64,000 nucleotides of DNA from Hyphomicrobium sp. LHD-15. GTDB lineage: Bacteria; Pseudomonadota; Alphaproteobacteria; Rhizobiales; Hyphomicrobiaceae. Shown here one piece after another: positions 16,779 through 47,190 of this stretch (position 1 is the first letter of the stretch; the number at the start of each line of letters is the position of its first letter). Both the position numbers and the translations under genes were made by a program. Under the pieces are notes generated by a model that was not told the origin of the DNA, ran no database searches, and worked only from the letters and a program-made list of their open reading frames with translations. The stretch spans positions 1 to 64,000 of the forward strand of contig NZ_JAVIFT010000005.1 of the NCBI RefSeq assembly GCF_031157355.1, in the 5' to 3' direction.

Positions 16779-18404
16779 TTACAGCCGCTCCATGAACGGC
16801 GTCGGATCGACCGGCTTCTGGCCCTGCCGCAGCTCGAAGTGAACCTGCGGCTGGTCGACCTGACCGGTGCGGCCGGCCTTCGCGATCACCTGCCCGCGCT
16901 TGATGCGGTCGCCACGCTTGACGAGAATTTCGTCGGCATGCGCGTAAGCCGTCACCCAGCCGTTGTCGTGGCGGATCAGCACGAGGTTGCCGTAACCCTT
17001 GAGCTCGTCGCCCGAATAGGCCACCACGCCGTTTTCAGCGGCATGAATGTCGGTGCCCATCGGCGCAGCGAAGTTGACGCCGTCGTTGTGCGTGCCGTCG
17101 GGACGCGGACCGAAGCCGGCGATGATCTTGCCCGCAACCGGCCAACGCAGTCGCGAACCCGCGACCGATCCGGAGTTCTGGCTGCTCGACGGCGAAACCG
17201 CATCGCTTGCCGCGCCCGGCGTTTCCGCCCGCGCAACACGCTCCACGTGCACCGGCGGCTGGGAAGCACCAGAATTCGAACCATTGAGCAGCGTCGGCTG
17301 CTGTGCCGACGACGGCGCAGGCCCGTTCGTCACTTCGCCGAGGCGGACGGCGCCCGGGGCAGGTGCCGGCGTTTCACTTGCGACATCGCGACTACCCGTA
17401 TCGCGGGGGGCGCTGTCGCGGCTCGGCGCCGGATCGTAGGACGGCTGAGACACGGCAGGCGCAACCTCGGCCACCGCTTCCGGCGCAGAACCGTTGGCGG
17501 GCAGCTTCAGCACGGTGCCCGGCTTCACCTTCCGTGAATCCGAAATGCCGTTGTAACGTTCGAGCTCAGCAAGCTTCACGTTGTTCTGTCGCGCGATCGC
17601 ATAGAGCGAGTCGCCGGAGCGGACGGTGTAGCTGCCGGTCCAATCCGACGGCGCATCTGCCGCGGCGGTCTGAGCCGGAGCAGGCGCTGCGGCCGTGTCG
17701 TAAGCTTCACGCGGCGGACGCGCGGTCTCGGATGCACGCGACGCGCGCACGCCGGACGGAAGATGCAGCTGCTGGCCCGGCTTGAGGTTCGGCGACGACA
17801 GCCCGTTGGCCGCCATCATCTCGTTGACCGAAACGTTGTGCCGGCGCGAAAGCGAATAGAGCGTGTCGCCGGGACGAACCTCGATGCTTTCGCCACCCGC
17901 GCTCGCACCCGCATCGCGCGAGGCGATCGGCGCGACGTTGTGGGACGGCACGTTGCTCGGGCGATATGCGCCAGGCGCGTCATAGCCGGCCGATCCCGAA
18001 TAGCCGGAGCCCGAAGCCGCGCCGCCCTGACCATAACCGCCCTGCGGTTGCTGACCGTAGCCGGACTGACCCTGCTGGCCGTTGCCATAAGACGACGGAT
18101 TGTCTTGCGACCGGATCGCGCTGGTCGTCAGCGGTTCCTGCGGCCGCGGCAGCTCAGAGCGCTGCACGCTGCTGCCCTGATAAGCCGGCCGATCATAACC
18201 CGCCGAGCCGAACTCGTTGGACGCCTGACGTCCGGGCGTCGAACCATAGTTGGATTGTGCGCTGGCGCCTTCGGGATTGCCGAGGTCAAAGCGGGCGATA
18301 TCCGCGCTGCATCCTGCCAATACGGCAGCGGCCGAGAAGATCAATCCGACCTTCAATCCCTGCACGCCGGAGGATTGCTGACATTTACGCAATGAACTTA
18401 ACAT
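16779..18404 (-). CDS. LysM and M23-domain lipoprotein, NlpD/DipM-like
   Basis: 541 residues. The lipobox VLAGC places the lipidated Cys at about residue 32. A long Gly/Gln/Ser-rich linker precedes two LysM domains (about 173-217 and 255-300) that bind peptidoglycan, then a second linker and an M23 domain (about 418-536). In active M23 peptidases the first zinc motif is HxxxD; here it reads HNDGVNFAAP, with Asn for the Asp, as in catalytically degenerate NlpD/DipM amidase activators; YAHAD and QVHFELR are also present. It therefore probably activates amidases at division rather than cutting. The ATG at 18404 has AGGGTG upstream and a CtrA box 45 bases away. It lies after surE in the usual order, but pcm is absent between them. 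Confidence 0.9.
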   Translation of the reverse strand: MLSSLRKCQQSSGVQGLKVGLIFSAAAVLAGCSADIARFDLGNPEGASAQSNYGSTPGRQASNEFGSAGYDRPAYQGSSVQRSELPRPQEPLTTSAIRSQDNPSSYGNGQQGQSGYGQQPQGGYGQGGAASGSGYSGSAGYDAPGAYRPSNVPSHNVAPIASRDAGASAGGESIEVRPGDTLYSLSRRHNVSVNEMMAANGLSSPNLKPGQQLHLPSGVRASRASETARPPREAYDTAAAPAPAQTAAADAPSDWTGSYTVRSGDSLYAIARQNNVKLAELERYNGISDSRKVKPGTVLKLPANGSAPEAVAEVAPAVSQPSYDPAPSRDSAPRDTGSRDVASETPAPAPGAVRLGEVTNGPAPSSAQQPTLLNGSNSGASQPPVHVERVARAETPGAASDAVSPSSSQNSGSVAGSRLRWPVAGKIIAGFGPRPDGTHNDGVNFAAPMGTDIHAAENGVVAYSGDELKGYGNLVLIRHDNGWVTAYAHADEILVKRGDRIKRGQVIAKAGRTGQVDQPQVHFELRQGQKPVDPTPFMERL

Positions 18405-18448
18405 GCCACACACCCTGAATACCCACTCTCCAGGTAACCCTTAACCAG

Positions 18449-18464
18449 TTAAGAGAACCTTAAC
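18449..18464. promoter_or_regulatory. Perfect CtrA-type box upstream of the LysM/M23 gene
   Basis: TTAA-GAGAACC-TTAAC fits the CtrA consensus TTAA-N7-TTAAC without mismatch and lies 45 bases upstream of the chosen start of the LysM/M23 lipoprotein gene. A further TTAAC at 18441 overlaps the cluster. The remaining 347-base gap (18405-18751) has no credible gene. Confidence 0.6.
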
Positions 18465-39107: not shown

Positions 39108-42023
39108 CTACCCCTCGATGCGCTTCAAAGCCGCCGAAAGTCGCGTGATGCGGTCGCTGGTTTCGACGACGCGCTCGCGGTTGAGCTCCACCACATGCTC
39201 TGGCGACTTCGCGACATTGGCCTCGTTCGCGAGCCACGCCGTCGCTTTGCCGCGATCGCCCTCAGCCTTTTCAATCTCTTTCTGAAGGCGCTTGCGTTCG
39301 GCCCCCATGTCGATGACGCCTTCGAGCGGCAGCGCGACGGTCGCTTCCCCGATCACGATCAGCGCCGCGCCCTTGGGCGCCGCCTGCGCGAACGTGATGC
39401 TCTCGAGGCGCGCCAACCGCCGGATCGTTTCATCGTGCCGGCGCGCGCGCGCAGCCGTGGCCTCGCTCGCCCCCGTGATGACCAGCGGGATTTTCGCACC
39501 AGCCGGGATGTTCATCTCCGTACGCACCGAGCGAACCTCGGAAACCAGCTTCACCACCCAGCCGATTTCCTCGTCGGCTTCCGTGCTCGAAAGTCCCGAA
39601 AGGCGCGGCCACTCGGACAGACACAGGAGCGACTTGCGCGCATGCCCGTGCTCGACCATGTGCGCCCACAGCTCTTCGGTGATGAACGGCATGAACGGAT
39701 GCAGCAGCTTGAGGCACTGATCGAGCACCCACGCCGTGCAGGCGCGCGTTTCGAGGATCGCGTCCTCGTCGTCACCCGCCAGGATCGGCTTGATCAGCTC
39801 CAGGTACCAGTCGCAGTAGACACCCCACACGAACTCGTAGATGGCGCCGGCCGCCTCGTTGAACTTGTAGCCTTCGAGCCCGGCCGTCACGGCGTTTGCC
39901 GCGCGCTCCGTCTCGCCGACGATCCACCGGTTCAGCGTGTGCTTGACGGAATGCGGATCGAAGTCGAACTGGCGCACGCATTCGTTCATCTCGCCGAAGC
40001 GCGCGGCGTTCCAGAGCTTGGTCGCGAAGTTGCGATAGCCCTCCACGCGCTGTGGCGCCAGCTTGATATCGCGGCCCTGCGCGGCCATCGCGGCGAGCGT
40101 GAAGCGCAGCGCATCCGCGCCGTACTTGTCGATGATCTGCAAGGGATCGATGACGTTGCCCTTCGATTTCGACATCTTCTGCCCCTTCTCGTCGCGAACG
40201 AGGGCATGGATGTAGATGTCACGGAACGGCACCTCCTGCATGAAGTGCTCGCCCATCATCATCATGCGGGCGACCCAGAAGAAGATGATGTCGAAGCCGG
40301 TGACGAGCACGCTGGTCGGATAGTAGCGTTTCAGCTCGGTCGTATCGTCGGGCCAGCCGAGCGTCGAGAACGGCCACAGCGCCGAGGAGAACCACGTGTC
40401 GAGCACGTCTTCGTCGCGATAAATCGGAATAGGAAGCAGCTTGTCCTTCGGATTGCCACTGAAGCGCGTTGAGAATTCCAATTCGTTTGAAACAATCTCT
40501 ACTGACAACCCGTAGTAGGCTCGGGCTTTCTCGAGCGCTTCTTCCTCGGAGGAAGCAACGAAAAACTCACGTTCAACGAGCGACAGTACACCTTCTGCCT
40601 TTTTGGGCCCGTACCACGCCGGAATTTGATGGCCCCACCACAGTTGGCGCGAAATGCACCACGGCTGGATGTTGCGCATCCACTCGAAGTAGGTCTTTTC
40701 CCAGTTCTTCGGCACAAACTGCGTCTTGCCGCTCTCGATCGCAGCTATCGCGGGCTTCGCAAGCTCCTCCGCATTGACGTACCACTGGTCTGTCAGCCAC
40801 GGCTCGATGACGTCATTCGACCGATCGCCGTGCGGAACGGTGTGCGTCGTCGGCTCGATCTTGGCGAGCAGACCCAGCGCCGCGATATCCGCAACGATGC
40901 GCTTGCGCGCTTCGAACCGGTCGAGCCCGCGATAGGCCTCCGGCACATCCGCGTCTTGGAAGATCTTGCCAAACGCATCGAGCACGTTGAGCTTCGCGAG
41001 ATCGTGCCGCTTCCCAACCTCGAAGTCGTTGAAGTCGTGCGCCGGCGTGATCTTCACCGCGCCCGTTCCCTTCTCGGGATCGGAGTACTCGTCGGCGACA
41101 ATCGGAATCTCGCGGCCAACCAGCGGCAGCAGCACCTTCGCGCGAGCCTTCACGAGCGCTGCGTAGCGCTCGTCCTCGGGATGCACAGCAACGCCCGTAT
41201 CGCCCAGCATCGTCTCGGGACGCGTCGTCGCGACGATGATGTAGGAGCGCGTCTCGAACGCCGTGGGCTTGCCCTCGTCGTCGAATGCAATCGGATGCTC
41301 GTAGGTTTTGCCGTCCGCCAGCGGATAGCGGAAATGGTACATGTGCCCTGAAGGATCCTTCTTCAGAACCTTCGCCAGCGCCTCCGCATCGAACGGCGTC
41401 TCGGGATCGCCGTCCACCCATGTGAACGAGCCCTTCTTCTCGACCTGCACGACCTCGAGATCCGAGATCGCGGTCTGGAACTTGGGGTCCCAGTTGACGA
41501 GCCGCTTGTCCTTGTAGATGAGCCCCTTCCGGTGCAGCTCGACGAACACTTTCACGACCGCGCGCGAAAGCCCTTCGTCCATCGTGAAGCGCTCGCGCGA
41601 CCAGTCGCACGAAGCACCGAGCCGGCGGAGCTGGTTGACGATGGTCGATCCGCTCTCTTCCTTCCACGCCCACACCCGGCGCACGAATTCCTCGCGCCCG
41701 AGCTCGCGGCGGTTCGGCTGCTGCCGCTCCATCAGCTGACGCTCGACCACCATCTGCGTCGCGATGCCCGCGTGGTCCGTGCCCGGCTGCCACAGCACGT
41801 CGCGCCCGCGCATGCGCTCGAAGCGCACCAGCACGTCCTGCAGCGTGTTGTTGAGCGCATGCCCCATATGGAGCGAGCCGGTCACGTTCGGCGGCGGGAT
41901 CACGATCGAATAGGGCTCGGCGCCGGCGCGCTCCGGGCGGCCACACTTGAAAGCGTCGGCCTTGTTCCACTCTTCGTTGATCCGCGGCTCGATCTCGGCG
42001 GGCTGATAGGTCTTGTCGAGCAT
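39108..42023 (-). CDS. valS: Valyl-tRNA synthetase
   Basis: 971 residues from ATG 42023 ([19 protein letters not shown]). HIGH motif in [19 protein letters not shown] and [15 protein letters not shown] loop; the editing domain with [19 protein letters not shown] is present and a C-terminal coiled coil closes the protein. It charges tRNA-Val. It is followed upstream by the popZ paralogues on the same strand. Confidence 0.97.
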
Positions 42024-42222
42024 GGGTCGCGCGAGCCTTTGCGGATGAAATTGGTGTGCGGACGGAAAAGCCGGACGCTTTCCCGGCACCGGCACGAGAA
42101 ACGGAGTTGTGGCGTCCTACGAACCCGCTTGCCGCCTGTCAATCGGCAGCGAGCGAGCCGCACGCGCCCGCGAGGGCGAATGCGCGAAGCGCTCTGGATC
42201 GTTCAGGGAAACGCGTGCAAAA

Positions 42223-43830
42223 TCAAGACCCGGACGGCTTGGAGCCAGGACGGACCGGATTGCTCACCTCGTTGCGCAGCGCTTTCTCGATGATGCGCGG
42301 CATATTGTCGGCGACCCACTGCTGCAGCATCGGGCGCAACATGTCGGCAACGGCATCCTCGAGCGTACGAGCAGCAGCCGGCACTGCGCCGCCCGCAGCC
42401 CCCGGCGCTGGCGTCAGCGCGTTGACTGGGGGCAACCCGGCGGCACCGGCGGGCTCCACGATCGGCGTCAACGGAATGGCTGCCTGTGCAGACGACTGGG
42501 TCACCCCTGCAAAAGCCGACGCGGCAGCCGAGGCCGCAAGCCCCTGTGCGAGAGCATCGAGAGCCTGCGCCGCGGCAGTTTCTGCAGCTGGAGCCGCAGT
42601 CGCGAAACGCGGTGCCGGCTCGACCACCGGCGAAGCCGGAGGAGGCGCGATGTTGCCGAGCGCGGAAAAACGATCGGAAAACGGCCTCGTGGCCGCGGCA
42701 GGTTTCGATGCCGGCGCCGGATTGATCGGCGCGACGGGGGCAATATCGATCGGCGCAACATCAACGACGGGAGCAGGCGCGAAAGATACCGGCTCGACGA
42801 GCTCAGCCTCGACGTCGGTTGAAGCGTCGATGATCTCCGCATCCGCCCGAGGTGTATCGCGTCCGTTTCCGCTATCGGGTGCACGCCCGAACGCCTCGAA
42901 GGCGGGCTCGGCCACGGCACTCCGGAACGGTGCGGGCGTTTCGAGAGCAGGCAGCCCCGTCGAAACGTCGGCGTCGTTACGCAAGGAGGTATCGCGATCG
43001 AGCGAAGACGAGGCCGGACGAACCTCGGTCGCGGGCTTCGCCTCGGGTGTCGAAAAAACCGGCGAGCCAAACAGCGTCGATGTCGATGCGCCCGTCTGAG
43101 CGGATCCCGACGAGATCTCGCCCGGCACCACGGCGCCAAGGCCGGAAAGCCGCTTCAGCTTTTCCTCTGCGCTCTCGGGCGGCGAAGCCGCGGCTGCCCG
43201 CGAAGATTCCACAGGCGGAAGCGGCGGCAGCACCGGCATCGCGTTCTGCGGCGGATAAAACCCCTGCTTCCGGAGCGGCGGAAAACCGAAATTGCGCGGC
43301 GCAGGCGGCGCGACATCCTTGACCGCCTCGCTATCGGAGCCCCCGAACGGCAGCGGCGGAACGAACGAGGACGATGACGCGGAGGTTGGCTGCGAAGCCG
43401 AAAGCTGAGGCGGCAGCAACGCGGCCCCGTTCAATGCAGGCTTGTCGCTCGCTTCCGCCGAAGCGGACGACTTCGATGCCGTCGAAAACGACAGCTCAGG
43501 CTTCGGCGCCGCGAGAGCAGCGCCTTGCGCGTCGCCTTCGTCGAACATGTCGGCGAGGTCCTGGTCGAACGACAACGGGCGCTTGGAGCCGAGCGGATTC
43601 GTGGGCGGAAGCGACCCGTTCCGGAGCACGCCATTCAGCCGATCGAGCAACGGCGGCGTCCGCGTATCCAAAGGCGTCGCGCCACCGGCACCGGACGACT
43701 TGGGCACGAGAGGATTGGCGTCGATAACGGCGTCAGAACGATCGGACGACGGCTCATCCGCGATGATCTGGCGGATCGAAGCCAGAATCTCTTCCATGCT
43801 CTGCTCGCCGGCTTTGTCCGGTCTGTTCAT
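42223..43830 (-). CDS. PopZ-like polar organising protein, long form (paralogue 1)
   Basis: 535 residues, about three times the size of Caulobacter PopZ. The N-terminus EQSMEEILASIRQIIADEPSS and C-terminus LEDAVADMLRPMLQQWVADNMPRIIEKALRNEV are the two conserved DUF2497/PopZ regions. A very long Pro/Ala/Ser-rich acidic linker lies between them. Just before the C-terminal region is LAASAAASAFAGVTQSS, resembling the Ala/Ser segment of Caulobacter PopZ. PopZ self-assembles at the cell pole and tethers ParB and cell-cycle proteins. ATG 43830 has a TAGGTAGGG upstream. A second paralogue precedes it. Confidence 0.88.
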   Translation of the reverse strand: MNRPDKAGEQSMEEILASIRQIIADEPSSDRSDAVIDANPLVPKSSGAGGATPLDTRTPPLLDRLNGVLRNGSLPPTNPLGSKRPLSFDQDLADMFDEGDAQGAALAAPKPELSFSTASKSSASAEASDKPALNGAALLPPQLSASQPTSASSSSFVPPLPFGGSDSEAVKDVAPPAPRNFGFPPLRKQGFYPPQNAMPVLPPLPPVESSRAAAASPPESAEEKLKRLSGLGAVVPGEISSGSAQTGASTSTLFGSPVFSTPEAKPATEVRPASSSLDRDTSLRNDADVSTGLPALETPAPFRSAVAEPAFEAFGRAPDSGNGRDTPRADAEIIDASTDVEAELVEPVSFAPAPVVDVAPIDIAPVAPINPAPASKPAAATRPFSDRFSALGNIAPPPASPVVEPAPRFATAAPAAETAAAQALDALAQGLAASAAASAFAGVTQSSAQAAIPLTPIVEPAGAAGLPPVNALTPAPGAAGGAVPAAARTLEDAVADMLRPMLQQWVADNMPRIIEKALRNEVSNPVRPGSKPSGS

Positions 43831-44030
43831 GCCCTACCTACCGCCCGATGCGCACCGCGCGGCTCGGTTGCCATGGACCGGCCGCAAACGGAATAGCGCA
43901 ACAAAAATCGCCTCTTGGGAAGACGTACCCCGGCATCGACATGGCTTCAATGCGTCTCGACCACCCTATCCGCACTCTTCTCACCGTATATGCTCAACCG
44001 CGCATACGACGTTTTCGAGGCAAAAACGAT

Positions 44031-44046
44031 GTTAAGACGGCATTAA
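44031..44046. promoter_or_regulatory. Perfect CtrA-type box between popZ paralogues
   Basis: On the minus strand it reads TTAA-TGCCGTC-TTAAC, matching the CtrA consensus exactly. It lies 201 bases upstream of the popZ-like paralogue 1 start and within 9 bases of the stop of paralogue 2, so it would act on paralogue 1 only if it drives it alone. Confidence 0.6.
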
Positions 44047-44054
44047 GTCGTGTC

Positions 44055-45074
44055 TCAGGGCTTCTTCGGCGCCTTGACGCTCTCCGCGATTTCGATGTGG
44101 AGGGCCTTTTCGACCATGCGGGGCATATTGTCCGCGAGCCACTGGCGTAGCATCGGCCGCAAAAGATCCGCGGTTGCATCTTCGATCGTGCCCTCGGGCT
44201 GAGCAGCCGCAGGCACAACCGCATCCGGCGCCGGCGCGCTCGATGAGGGAAGCGGCGGCGGCGGCATCGCCGCGACCGGAGGCGCGGCGGCGACCGGCGG
44301 AACCACCACTACGAAGGGTTCCTCAGGCACTTCCGTCACGACGAACTGAGATGGGTTAATCGGAGTCGGCGAGACCCGCTCGAACTGGCCCGGAACAATA
44401 GCGCGGAAATCGACAGGAGAGCCGGCCGGCGGCTCGGGTGTGCGCTGGACGACCGGCGCAGGCTCGGGCGTGGCGGCAGGAGCAGGCGACGGAAGCGCGC
44501 CGGTGGGCGCGGCCATGCGGAGAAAATGCGTATCCTTGAACGCGCTCATCACCCGCTTGGGAGCATCACCGCCTTCCGGTGCGCTCGAGGCGGAGGCCGG
44601 AGCCCCCCCGGACGACTGCGAAACCGGCGCGGCAGGCGCGCTCGCAGCGTGTGGGTCGCTCGGAGCGGATTCGCTCGGCCGCACGCTCTTGAGAGAGCTC
44701 AAGCCTGCATTGGGAGCGGGGGATTCGGACGAAAGCGCACCACCCTCTACCGGCGCGCCCCGGGAGAAATCGTCGTCACCGTTGAACAGCGGGCGAGTTT
44801 CGGGCTGTGCCGACGTCGCGCCCCGAATCGCATCCGTGAGACGGCCAAGCAGCGGCGTCTGCTTCTCGCTTGCGGCCGGAGGCGAAGATCTGAAAATTGC
44901 GGGCAGATCGAAATCGCCAGCATCGTCGAGCGCACTATCGCCCCTAAGCATGATCGGCGTACCGCGAAGCTCCCCATGGGAGCCATGCCCGGCGGGTTCC
45001 TCGGCAATGATCCTGCGGATCGATGCCAGGATCTCCTCCATGCTCGGCTGGCCGTTTTTCTCTGTCATGTTCAT
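44055..45074 (-). CDS. PopZ-like protein, paralogue 2
   Basis: 339 residues from ATG 45074 (GGAG upstream; MNMTEKNGQPSMEEILASIR). It has the same N-terminal motif (MEEILASIRRIIAEEP) and a C-terminal block (IEDATADLLRPMLRQWLADNMPRMVEKALHIEI), with a Pro/Ala-rich linker. The Ala/Ser AASAFA-like segment of paralogue 1 is not evident. It ends ESVKAPKKP. Either a second polar scaffold or a modulator is possible. Confidence 0.87.
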   Translation of the reverse strand: MNMTEKNGQPSMEEILASIRRIIAEEPAGHGSHGELRGTPIMLRGDSALDDAGDFDLPAIFRSSPPAASEKQTPLLGRLTDAIRGATSAQPETRPLFNGDDDFSRGAPVEGGALSSESPAPNAGLSSLKSVRPSESAPSDPHAASAPAAPVSQSSGGAPASASSAPEGGDAPKRVMSAFKDTHFLRMAAPTGALPSPAPAATPEPAPVVQRTPEPPAGSPVDFRAIVPGQFERVSPTPINPSQFVVTEVPEEPFVVVVPPVAAAPPVAAMPPPPLPSSSAPAPDAVVPAAAQPEGTIEDATADLLRPMLRQWLADNMPRMVEKALHIEIAESVKAPKKP

Positions 45075-45404
45075 TACGCCACTCCCTACGCACACCACGA
45101 CAAGCACTGCGACACCCGACCCGCATGGATGCCGTCCCCGACTGAGGCCACCGCAATTCCCCGATTGCAGTGCCTGACCCCGCGTGCGCACACGACGAGG
45201 CGTTCGTAGAGCTGACGTGCGCCAAGGATCACCCGCGCCCTGGCAGACGCAGCATTTCCGCTAATACAAAAGTTGTGTGTGGGACTCCCACCGCGCTCGA
45301 AGCTAAGCGCGATAATGGGCAACGATGTGGCAAAGCCACAGCACAACACAAATCGACAGCGATTAGCCTCAGCTAACCCGCCGACTGTGCCCTGCTCAAG
45401 GATT
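45075..45404. other. Intergenic region upstream of popZ paralogue 2
   Basis: 330 bases between popZ paralogue 2 and the TolC-like gene; contains its promoter. No credible gene and no CtrA box with correct spacing. Confidence 0.45.
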
Positions 45405-46838
45405 TTATTTTACGGGATCAGACGCCGGCAGCTCTTCGGTGCGGCCGTCGGAATGGGTTATCGAAGTGCCCCAAGGTTTACGGCGCACTTCCTGATAATG
45501 TGCTTCAGCATCGTAGGCGATCGACGTGAAGCCGATATTCACAGCATCGAGCCGTCCGATCGCTGCCAGCACCGCGTAGTTGGCAACGACAACGTTACGA
45601 CGCGTCGTCTCGAGCGTGACCTGCGAGGTCAGAAGCTCCAGCTCCGCGTTGAGCACGTCGAGAAGCGTGCGCTGCCCAACTCGCTCTTCTTCGCGCACGC
45701 CGGTGAGAGCCGTCGTATTGGCGCTGACCTGCGACTGATCGGACTGGACCTGCGCGCGGAACGCGAGCAGCTGCGACCAGGCTCCGACGACGTTCGCCTC
45801 GGTCTCGCTCCGGGCCTGCTCGATCTCCTGCAGGCGGCTGACATGAATGTGCTTCTGCTGACGAACGCGCGCATAGACTTCGCCGCCCTCGTAGATCGGC
45901 ACAGTCAAACGGCCGGTAACGACGGCATCTTCCGTCTCGTTGATCCCGACCGAGGTGTCGAAACGATCGGTATACGAAGCCTCGAGCTGAACCGACGGCA
46001 GCAGTTCACCGCGAATCCGATCCACGCCAAAACGGGCGGCCTGCTCGAGATAGAGCGAATTGACGACGGCCGGGCTCTCCGAGGTGCCGATCCGGGTCGC
46101 CTCTTCCAGAGATCTCGGAACCAGCCGCTCGTATCCGCTCGGCTCGACCAGATTGTCCGGCGCATGACCAACGACGCGCTCATAGGTGGCGCGGCTTGTC
46201 TTGAGATTCGCCTTGGCAAGATCGAGCGCCGACACGGAACCAGCGCGGCGCGCCTGCGCCTGCGCTACGTCCGTGCGCGTCACTTCGCCGACAGCGAAGC
46301 GATCCTGCGTTGCTTTGAGTTCGCGCGAGAGCACGTTCACGTTGTTTTCGCGCAGCTTCAAGATCGCCTGATCGCGCACGACATCCATGAACGCCGTGAC
46401 GGCATCGAGCAGAACGGCTTGCTCGACCGAACGCAGCGTCTCACGGCCGGCGCGGACGTTCGCCTCTTGCTCGTTGACCGAGTTGATGGTGCGGAAGCCG
46501 TTGAAGATCGGCTGGACGGCCTCGACCGAATAACCCTTCGGCTTGAGTTCGTTCTCCGTCGTACCGGTTATCGCGCGCGTTTTGGTGTTCTGATAGTTGA
46601 CGTCGGCGTTTCCCGTGATCACCGGCCGGAAGCCGGACCGAGCGCGCGTCACTTCTTCATCGACTGCGCGCAAGCGCGCGCGCTCTGCATCGAGCTGCGG
46701 ATTGTATTGATAGGCCGAGGCGAGTGCCTGATTGAGCGTCTCGGAGCGAACCTCGGTCGGCAAGCCCATGACAGCTCCACCCGCTACCGCGAGGGCAGCA
46801 AGAACGGAAAGCTGCAAATTCCGTTTGAGCGCGACCAA
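45405..46838 (-). CDS. tolC: TolC family outer-membrane channel
   Basis: 477 residues from TTG 46838, which has GGAG six bases upstream; a signal peptide follows (LKRNLQLSVLAALAVAGGAV...EVRS-ETL). The TolC fold is visible in repeated long helices: LNQALASAYQYNPQLDAERARLRAVDEEV near the start and ATRIGTSESPAVVNSLYLEQAARFG in the second half. It forms a trimeric outer-membrane exit duct for type I secretion or efflux. No cognate ABC or HlyD gene adjoins it, although an HlyD-like gene is at 55.6 kb. A TTG start further upstream (46871) is possible. Confidence 0.9.
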   Translation of the reverse strand: MVALKRNLQLSVLAALAVAGGAVMGLPTEVRSETLNQALASAYQYNPQLDAERARLRAVDEEVTRARSGFRPVITGNADVNYQNTKTRAITGTTENELKPKGYSVEAVQPIFNGFRTINSVNEQEANVRAGRETLRSVEQAVLLDAVTAFMDVVRDQAILKLRENNVNVLSRELKATQDRFAVGEVTRTDVAQAQARRAGSVSALDLAKANLKTSRATYERVVGHAPDNLVEPSGYERLVPRSLEEATRIGTSESPAVVNSLYLEQAARFGVDRIRGELLPSVQLEASYTDRFDTSVGINETEDAVVTGRLTVPIYEGGEVYARVRQQKHIHVSRLQEIEQARSETEANVVGAWSQLLAFRAQVQSDQSQVSANTTALTGVREEERVGQRTLLDVLNAELELLTSQVTLETTRRNVVVANYAVLAAIGRLDAVNIGFTSIAYDAEAHYQEVRRKPWGTSITHSDGRTEELPASDPVK

Positions 46839-47190
46839 AGTAAACTCCAAGCCCTGCTCGCTTCCTTCCAAGCCTCTGAAAACAGAGGCATCCAGATGAA
46901 GGTCGCGAATTCACCCCCAGTGCCAACTCTTAACGTCTTAGAGCAGTGATTTGATTCGAAGAAGGGCGGCGGAGGGGTCTCACCCTACAAGCTCGGAAAA
47001 GCGTGGCCGCATTCCCACACACCAGAAATCATCGCCCACCGGAGTTACCGGTAAGTAACATGAGCGAATATCAGCTAATTCATTGATTTAACGGAACAAC
47101 ATGGTCAGTCCGTCAACGGATCTTCGGCCCGCCGCGGGTCCGGTGGATAAGCAACGGTCAGCCAGATGCAAGGGTTGTCGCCGACTATTT
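46839..47190. other. Intergenic region tolC / methyltransferase
   Basis: 352 bases with the tolC promoter. It is comparatively AT-rich near 47055-47095. I found no gene. Confidence 0.4.

Follow-up and report, generated by a model that had tools for sequence, protein, structure and literature searches.

PopZ is a protein that organizes bacterial cell poles and the usual model for a single-protein condensate in bacteria, with a function that depends on linker length and helix number. In the first 64,000 nucleotides of contig NZ_JAVIFT010000005.1 of Hyphomicrobium sp. LHD-15 (hereafter, the window), two PopZ-family genes lie in tandem, raising the questions of whether the pair is peculiar to this genome and of what a second scaffold might contribute to a pole. 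As far as the sequences can tell, cell poles in this lineage are probably built from two scaffold proteins in place of one.

The long PopZ, P1 (positions 42223-43830, minus strand; 535 amino acids, starting MNRPDKAGEQSMEEILASIRQIIADEP), was recognized by its DUF2497 match, its locus, and its place in a tree of the terminal blocks. The short paralog, P2 (44055-45074, minus strand; 339 amino acids, starting MNMTEKNGQPSMEEILASIRRIIAEEP), lies upstream of P1 in the direction of transcription and was recognized by its DUF2497 match, its membership of a P2 clade, and its low dN/dS. Against a cut-off of 27, the Pfam DUF2497 profile (PF10691) matched P1 with 45.5 bits (residues 485-523) and P2 with 44.2 bits (residues 291-330), and these are the only such matches in the genome, which is rated complete by estimate. 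The NCBIfam model PopZ_fam (NF052660) gave 59.9 bits (E = 7e-16) and 62.0 bits (E = 1.6e-16), respectively, both below its 125-bit cut-off, which is unsurprising because the linkers of P1 and P2 are so long and the model, with 167 positions, covers a far shorter protein. Neither protein is therefore assigned to that NCBI subfamily; the wider Pfam family was kept on the basis of the profile, helix 1, and the locus. A PDB search with P2 returned no match.

Both proteins share a start of the form ..SMEEILASIR.IIA.EP, which includes the client-binding helix 1 (MEEILASIR), and an end block, LRPML.QW.ADNMPR; counted from the tree alignment rows, their C-terminal blocks are ~70% identical over 34 residues. 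The preliminary description, which saw here two tandem PopZ paralogs with conserved N- and C-terminal regions and linkers of about 430 and 240 residues, thus held up in these respects: both ORFs stand at the canonical popZ locus, the DUF2497 matches and shared end blocks agree with the conserved regions, and the distance between N- and C-terminal blocks is 466 residues in P1 versus 271 in P2, the earlier block edges having been slightly different. Its view of P1 as unusually long did not survive, as single-copy PopZ proteins of the same family range from ~280 to 680 amino acids and most exceed 380.

Downstream of the pair is valS (39108-42095, minus strand), a hallmark of the canonical popZ locus, and upstream is a gene for a tolC-type outer-membrane efflux protein (45405-46871, minus strand). 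The order pcm, tolC, popZ, valS held, for gene or pair, in almost every locus examined; genera with the pair carry it in the tolC-valS interval, where single-copy relatives have one gene. In Magnetospirillum and Caulobacter, too, popZ has been reported to lie between an efflux protein gene and valS (PMC6414705). Several family members (L059, L062, L065, L077, L078, and others) have two consecutive tolC-like genes between pcm and popZ.

How widely the pair is shared was surveyed with PF10691 at E <= 0.001, using one genome per species. The pair was present in all eight sampled Hyphomicrobium genomes, and at least two DUF2497 matches were found in 45 of the 103 genomes of the GTDB family Hyphomicrobiaceae. 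Within this family, eight genera carry the pair (labeled g1, g5, g11, g14, g16, g17, g22, and g23), and a ninth, g2, has a gene of the P2 type at the edge of a contig. Outside the family, 137 of 145 sampled genomes of the order had exactly one match and eight had none, while among the 115 matching genomes from elsewhere in the class all but one (114) had a single match. The only genome there with two (G370) has them unlinked, on separate contigs of a metagenome-assembled genome (MAG) in 410 contigs, and contamination is possible. No tandem PopZ was seen beyond the one family among the sampled genomes of the order and class. The duplication is thus neither recent nor private to this genome. The single PopZ named earlier for Caulobacter and Agrobacterium is the rule in both the order and class surveys, and the pair, for which a survey of this kind had been proposed, is common to related genera of the family. 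A commonplace tandem PopZ together with a silent P2 would have counted against the preliminary description; the tandem is indeed common inside one family, but it is very rare outside, and P2 is strongly conserved.

Some close relatives do without P2. The Hyphomicrobium sulfonivorans group, whose members are budding bacteria, has one copy (L122; 680 amino acids), and a P2 profile did not find P2 elsewhere in single-copy genomes, apart from the beginning of a P2 at the edge of a contig of G022. The one-copy genera, the H. sulfonivorans group included, demonstrate that close relatives can dispense with P2. Additional copies were also observed. Hyphomicrobium MAG RBC040 (G001) has on contig 12 a third, unlinked, fast-evolving PopZ-like gene of 250 amino acids (L034:5002-5751, which is L141:4998-5750) with a degenerate P2 motif, PREMPLCRDRLVVRM, and a genome of g17 (G023; L044, L045, and L046) has four PopZ-like genes, a linked pair and two unlinked, diverged ones.

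The common origin of P2 was examined with a tree of the N- and C-terminal blocks (66 columns), from which all linkers, and hence the P2 motif described below, were left out. All linked P2s formed one clade of 31 rows (support 87/94, which is moderate, from 66 columns), which included the diverged g22 genes, the genes of g11, and the G007 and G114 rows that the initial pattern had not labeled as P2. P1 grouped with single-copy PopZ, outside this clade; this phylogeny, of a kind that had been suggested for the C-terminal blocks, separates the two paralogs. Most likely, P1 is the ortholog of the ordinary single PopZ and P2 a diverged co-scaffold. That several genera duplicated popZ independently and converged on the same layout might be read from g11, where the order is swapped, with the long gene first and the short gene adjoining valS, and from the valS tree, on which four changes of state are needed. 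Yet all linked P2s, the swapped ones too, fall in one clade (87/94) and have one linker motif in common, and we regard repeated duplication as highly improbable; for g11 in particular, it was rejected on the shared motif and the block tree. On the valS tree the P2-bearing genera cluster, with a poorly resolved backbone, and four state changes fit one gain and a few losses. P1 and P2 are paralogs of ancient shared origin.

Comparisons within the genus indicated that both genes are under purifying selection, which is stronger on P2 than on P1. Over residues 1-27, mean dN/dS values were 0.038/0.79 for P2 and 0.097/0.60 for P1, and over the last 50 residues 0.096/1.23 and 0.19/0.94. The slower evolution of P2 argues that it is functional.

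AlphaFold2 models, computed from 19 sequences for P2 and 23 for P1, were mostly disordered (mean pLDDT 53 and 52). In P1, three helices were confidently predicted, at residues 12-25, 416-438, and 490-523. The first lies in the N-terminal block with helix 1 (43750-43830, minus strand; pLDDT ~85), also seen in the alignment, and the last in the C-terminal oligomerization block (residues 488-523; 42262-42369, minus strand; pLDDT 90-95), which coincides with the DUF2497 match. The extra helix between them (42517-42585, minus strand; block mean pLDDT 78) surrounds QALDALAQGLAASA, its residues 422-435 forming an island conserved in the genus; the other islands conserved in P1 are both ends, PLGSKRPLSFDQDLADMF, and GFPPLR. 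Because it lies ~50 residues before the C-terminal helices, on the side expected for PopZ helix 2, this modeled helix could possibly be the counterpart of helix 2, although a profile of helix 2 built from the order's other families did not pick it up. The preliminary description had pointed instead to an Ala/Ser segment of P1 like that of Caulobacter. The letters AASAAASAF are present, but the match is weak, being reached by 15 of 400 local shuffles for the window P1 and by 48-317 of 400 for six further P1s from the genus; the conserved part is the neighboring QALDALAQGLAASA. The segment was discarded as proof that P1 has a helix 2 of the Caulobacter type, since it is not clearly beyond composition and the helix-2 profile was negative.

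In P2, the confidently predicted helices are 12-25 and 298-333. The N-terminal block (residues 1-27; 44994-45074, minus strand) carries a paralog-specific KNG ahead of helix 1, and K6, G8, E13-S18, and R20-I22 were invariant in an alignment of 12 sequences from five genera. The C-terminal oligomerization block (residues 297-333; 44076-44186, minus strand) has both the DUF2497 match and the predicted helix (pLDDT 84-94). A further conserved block, PLLGRLTDAIRGA (residues 74-86; 44817-44855, minus strand), falls in a low-confidence predicted helix (75-88, pLDDT ~57), and P1 has a related block after its N-terminus. AlphaFold2 predicted no counterpart of the extra P1 helix, so that P2 is predicted to lack a helix before its C-terminal block.

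This difference bears on whether P2 might be an assembly limiter, capping or fluidizing P1 condensates with no client role itself. The predicted lack of the extra helix and the shorter linker would suit such a part, as PopZ of Caulobacter turns from solid to liquid or back when helix number or linker length is changed (PMC9512792). Helix 1 and the linker motif, however, would be needless for a pure cap, yet few parts of P2 are under tighter constraint, and we consider a limiter unlikely.

The linker motif, PKRVMSAFKDTHFLRM (residues 172-187; 44514-44561, minus strand), was detected by motif scans and is a conserved island in the genus; the conserved islands of P2 are both ends, RGTPIMLRGDSAL, GDFDLPAIFRSS, PLLGRLTDAIR, and VMSAFKDTHFL. 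Its pattern is R-x-M-x-x-F-x-D-T-[RH]-x-x-x-M, with the consensus R-x-M-x-x-F-K-D-T-R-F-x-R-M; residues 173-187 of the window P2 read KRVMSAFKDTHFLRM, and other genera have KREMAPFKDTRFMRM, RRVMVPFRDMRMSRM, PRQMAAFKDTRFRGM, and KRVMTSFFDTRMSRM. The motif is present in linked P2s of the eight pair genera and in g2, is not recognizable in one g22 member (G113), and was matched by the scans used in no P1 or single-copy PopZ. Across genera, helix 1 of P2 is near that of PopZ in g1, g5, g14, g16, and g23 and diverged in g11, g17, and g22 (e.g., MTQMNGAKHDVEDILASIRTSIAD; g22 genes L081:8063-9007 and L082:7851-8657, and the g11 P2 genes); in these last three genera the client of P2 may have changed. 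These patterns also weigh on the idea that two interchangeable copies are retained for dosage or redundancy. The near-identical helix 1 and C-terminal block of the window pair would be expected of such copies, but the paralog-specific linkers, the P2-only motif, the long separate histories, and the divergence of P2 helix 1 itself in three genera make this explanation very unlikely.

The DNA upstream of P2 contains a stretch conserved in the eight genus members that includes a pair of inverted repeats as well as a GANTC site. One repeat is the palindrome GTGGGAGTCCCAC with its GANTC (CcrM-type) site (45279-45291), a putative element; in the upstream alignment the GANTC site is found in 8/8 members, one of which has GAATC in place of GAGTC. 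The other, TGTGGC-TTT-GCCACA (45326-45340), which may serve tolC as a terminator or act as a promoter/operator, lies inside the conserved tolC-P2 block, and two other genera likewise retain its TTTGCCACA half. GANTC is strongly depleted in the window as a whole (76 sites versus 351 expected from shuffles), the usual mark of a CcrM-methylating alphaproteobacterium. Perfect CtrA-type sites (TTAA-N7-TTAA; 0.01 expected per window) occur between P1 and P2 (44032-44046) and at 18449-18463. CtrA control of P1 was rejected as a conserved feature, since none of the other loci examined, in the genus or in the family, has the 44032-44046 site. The site at 18449-18463 is 36 bases upstream of a LysM/M23-type gene (16779-18413, minus strand) that looks like a DipM/NlpD homolog. 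A scan of 41900-45500 for sigma-70 type promoters found none.

That each paralog has its own upstream region and its own conserved linker islands could suggest a division of labor by place, with P1 and P2 making separate bodies at different poles (of the mother cell, the prostheca tip, or the bud) and each anchoring its own clients. Against this, the ~70% identical C-terminal blocks make mixing likely, and the budding H. sulfonivorans group has one copy. The single PopZ of Hyphomonas neptunium, which is not required for segregation, leaves the old pole for the bud, and the study describing this infers that unknown factors act at the remaining poles (PMC6650430), which speaks for such a division. 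On balance, separate bodies appear rather unlikely, if less so than a limiter.

The reading that we favor, tentatively and at somewhat less than an even chance, is that an old tandem duplication of popZ in Hyphomicrobiaceae led to a composite polar condensate of P1 and P2. After the duplication, both genes were kept adjacent at the tolC-popZ-valS locus. P1 has helix 1 for client binding, then a long linker that is disordered, the extra helix predicted ahead of the C-terminal helices, and the oligomerization block; P2 retained helix 1 and the oligomerization block but has a shorter linker with a paralog-specific linear motif and, by prediction, no extra helix. Given the ~70% identity of the C-terminal blocks, co-assembly through these similar helices would be the simplest expectation. 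P2 would then bring fewer interaction helices per chain into the condensate and could recruit an additional partner through its motif, so that the P1:P2 ratio would set the material state and client set of the pole. PopZ condensates of Caulobacter owe their material state and partner recruitment to linker length and to how many C-terminal helices are present, and altering either shifts PopZ between solid and liquid (PMC9512792); that P1 and P2 differ in these same features suggests, by analogy, a composite condensate tuned by ratio. A stricter form of this reading, in which the two-component condensate is obligate, P2 acts as a client adaptor whose motif binds a lineage-specific polar factor, and the P1:P2 ratio sets pole identity, is possible but doubtful.

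A lineage that keeps two PopZ proteins unlike in linker length and helix number over many species amounts to a natural experiment on how scaffold composition determines pole identity. PopZ itself is well known; what is new, as far as the open literature was searched, is a conserved two-PopZ lineage with a paralog-specific motif. We found no report of two PopZ proteins in Hyphomicrobium in the open literature, which mostly excludes subscription journals. Rhizobiales are reported to be without ZitP and to have mostly unknown PopZ partners (PMC5182065), making the P2 motif a concrete bait for a partner.

Compared with known systems, PopZ of Agrobacterium tumefaciens and other Hyphomicrobiales is of the same family and locus type, and the single PopZ of the order is a relative of P1. 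Unlike the pair, it is single copy in every sampled matching genome of the order outside the family, and there DUF2497 positions 1-75 are mostly matched, whereas in Hyphomicrobiaceae the match mostly begins at ~30, that is, with the last helices only. Hyphomonas neptunium shares the stalked budding lifestyle, but one PopZ copy has been described for it (PMC6650430). Caulobacter crescentus PopZ (177 amino acids; PDB 6XRY covers residues 1-134) resembles P1 and P2 in its N-terminal helix, MEEILASIRRII, its long disordered linker, and its C-terminal LRP.L..W.D.N.PRI oligomerization block, and its gene likewise adjoins an efflux protein gene and valS. No P2-type motif occurs in the 134 residues of 6XRY, and C. 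crescentus has one popZ gene. The linkers differ in make-up (Ala/Pro/Ser in P1 and P2) and in length, with ~93 residues in Caulobacterales (PMC9512792) against ~270 in P2 and 466 in P1.
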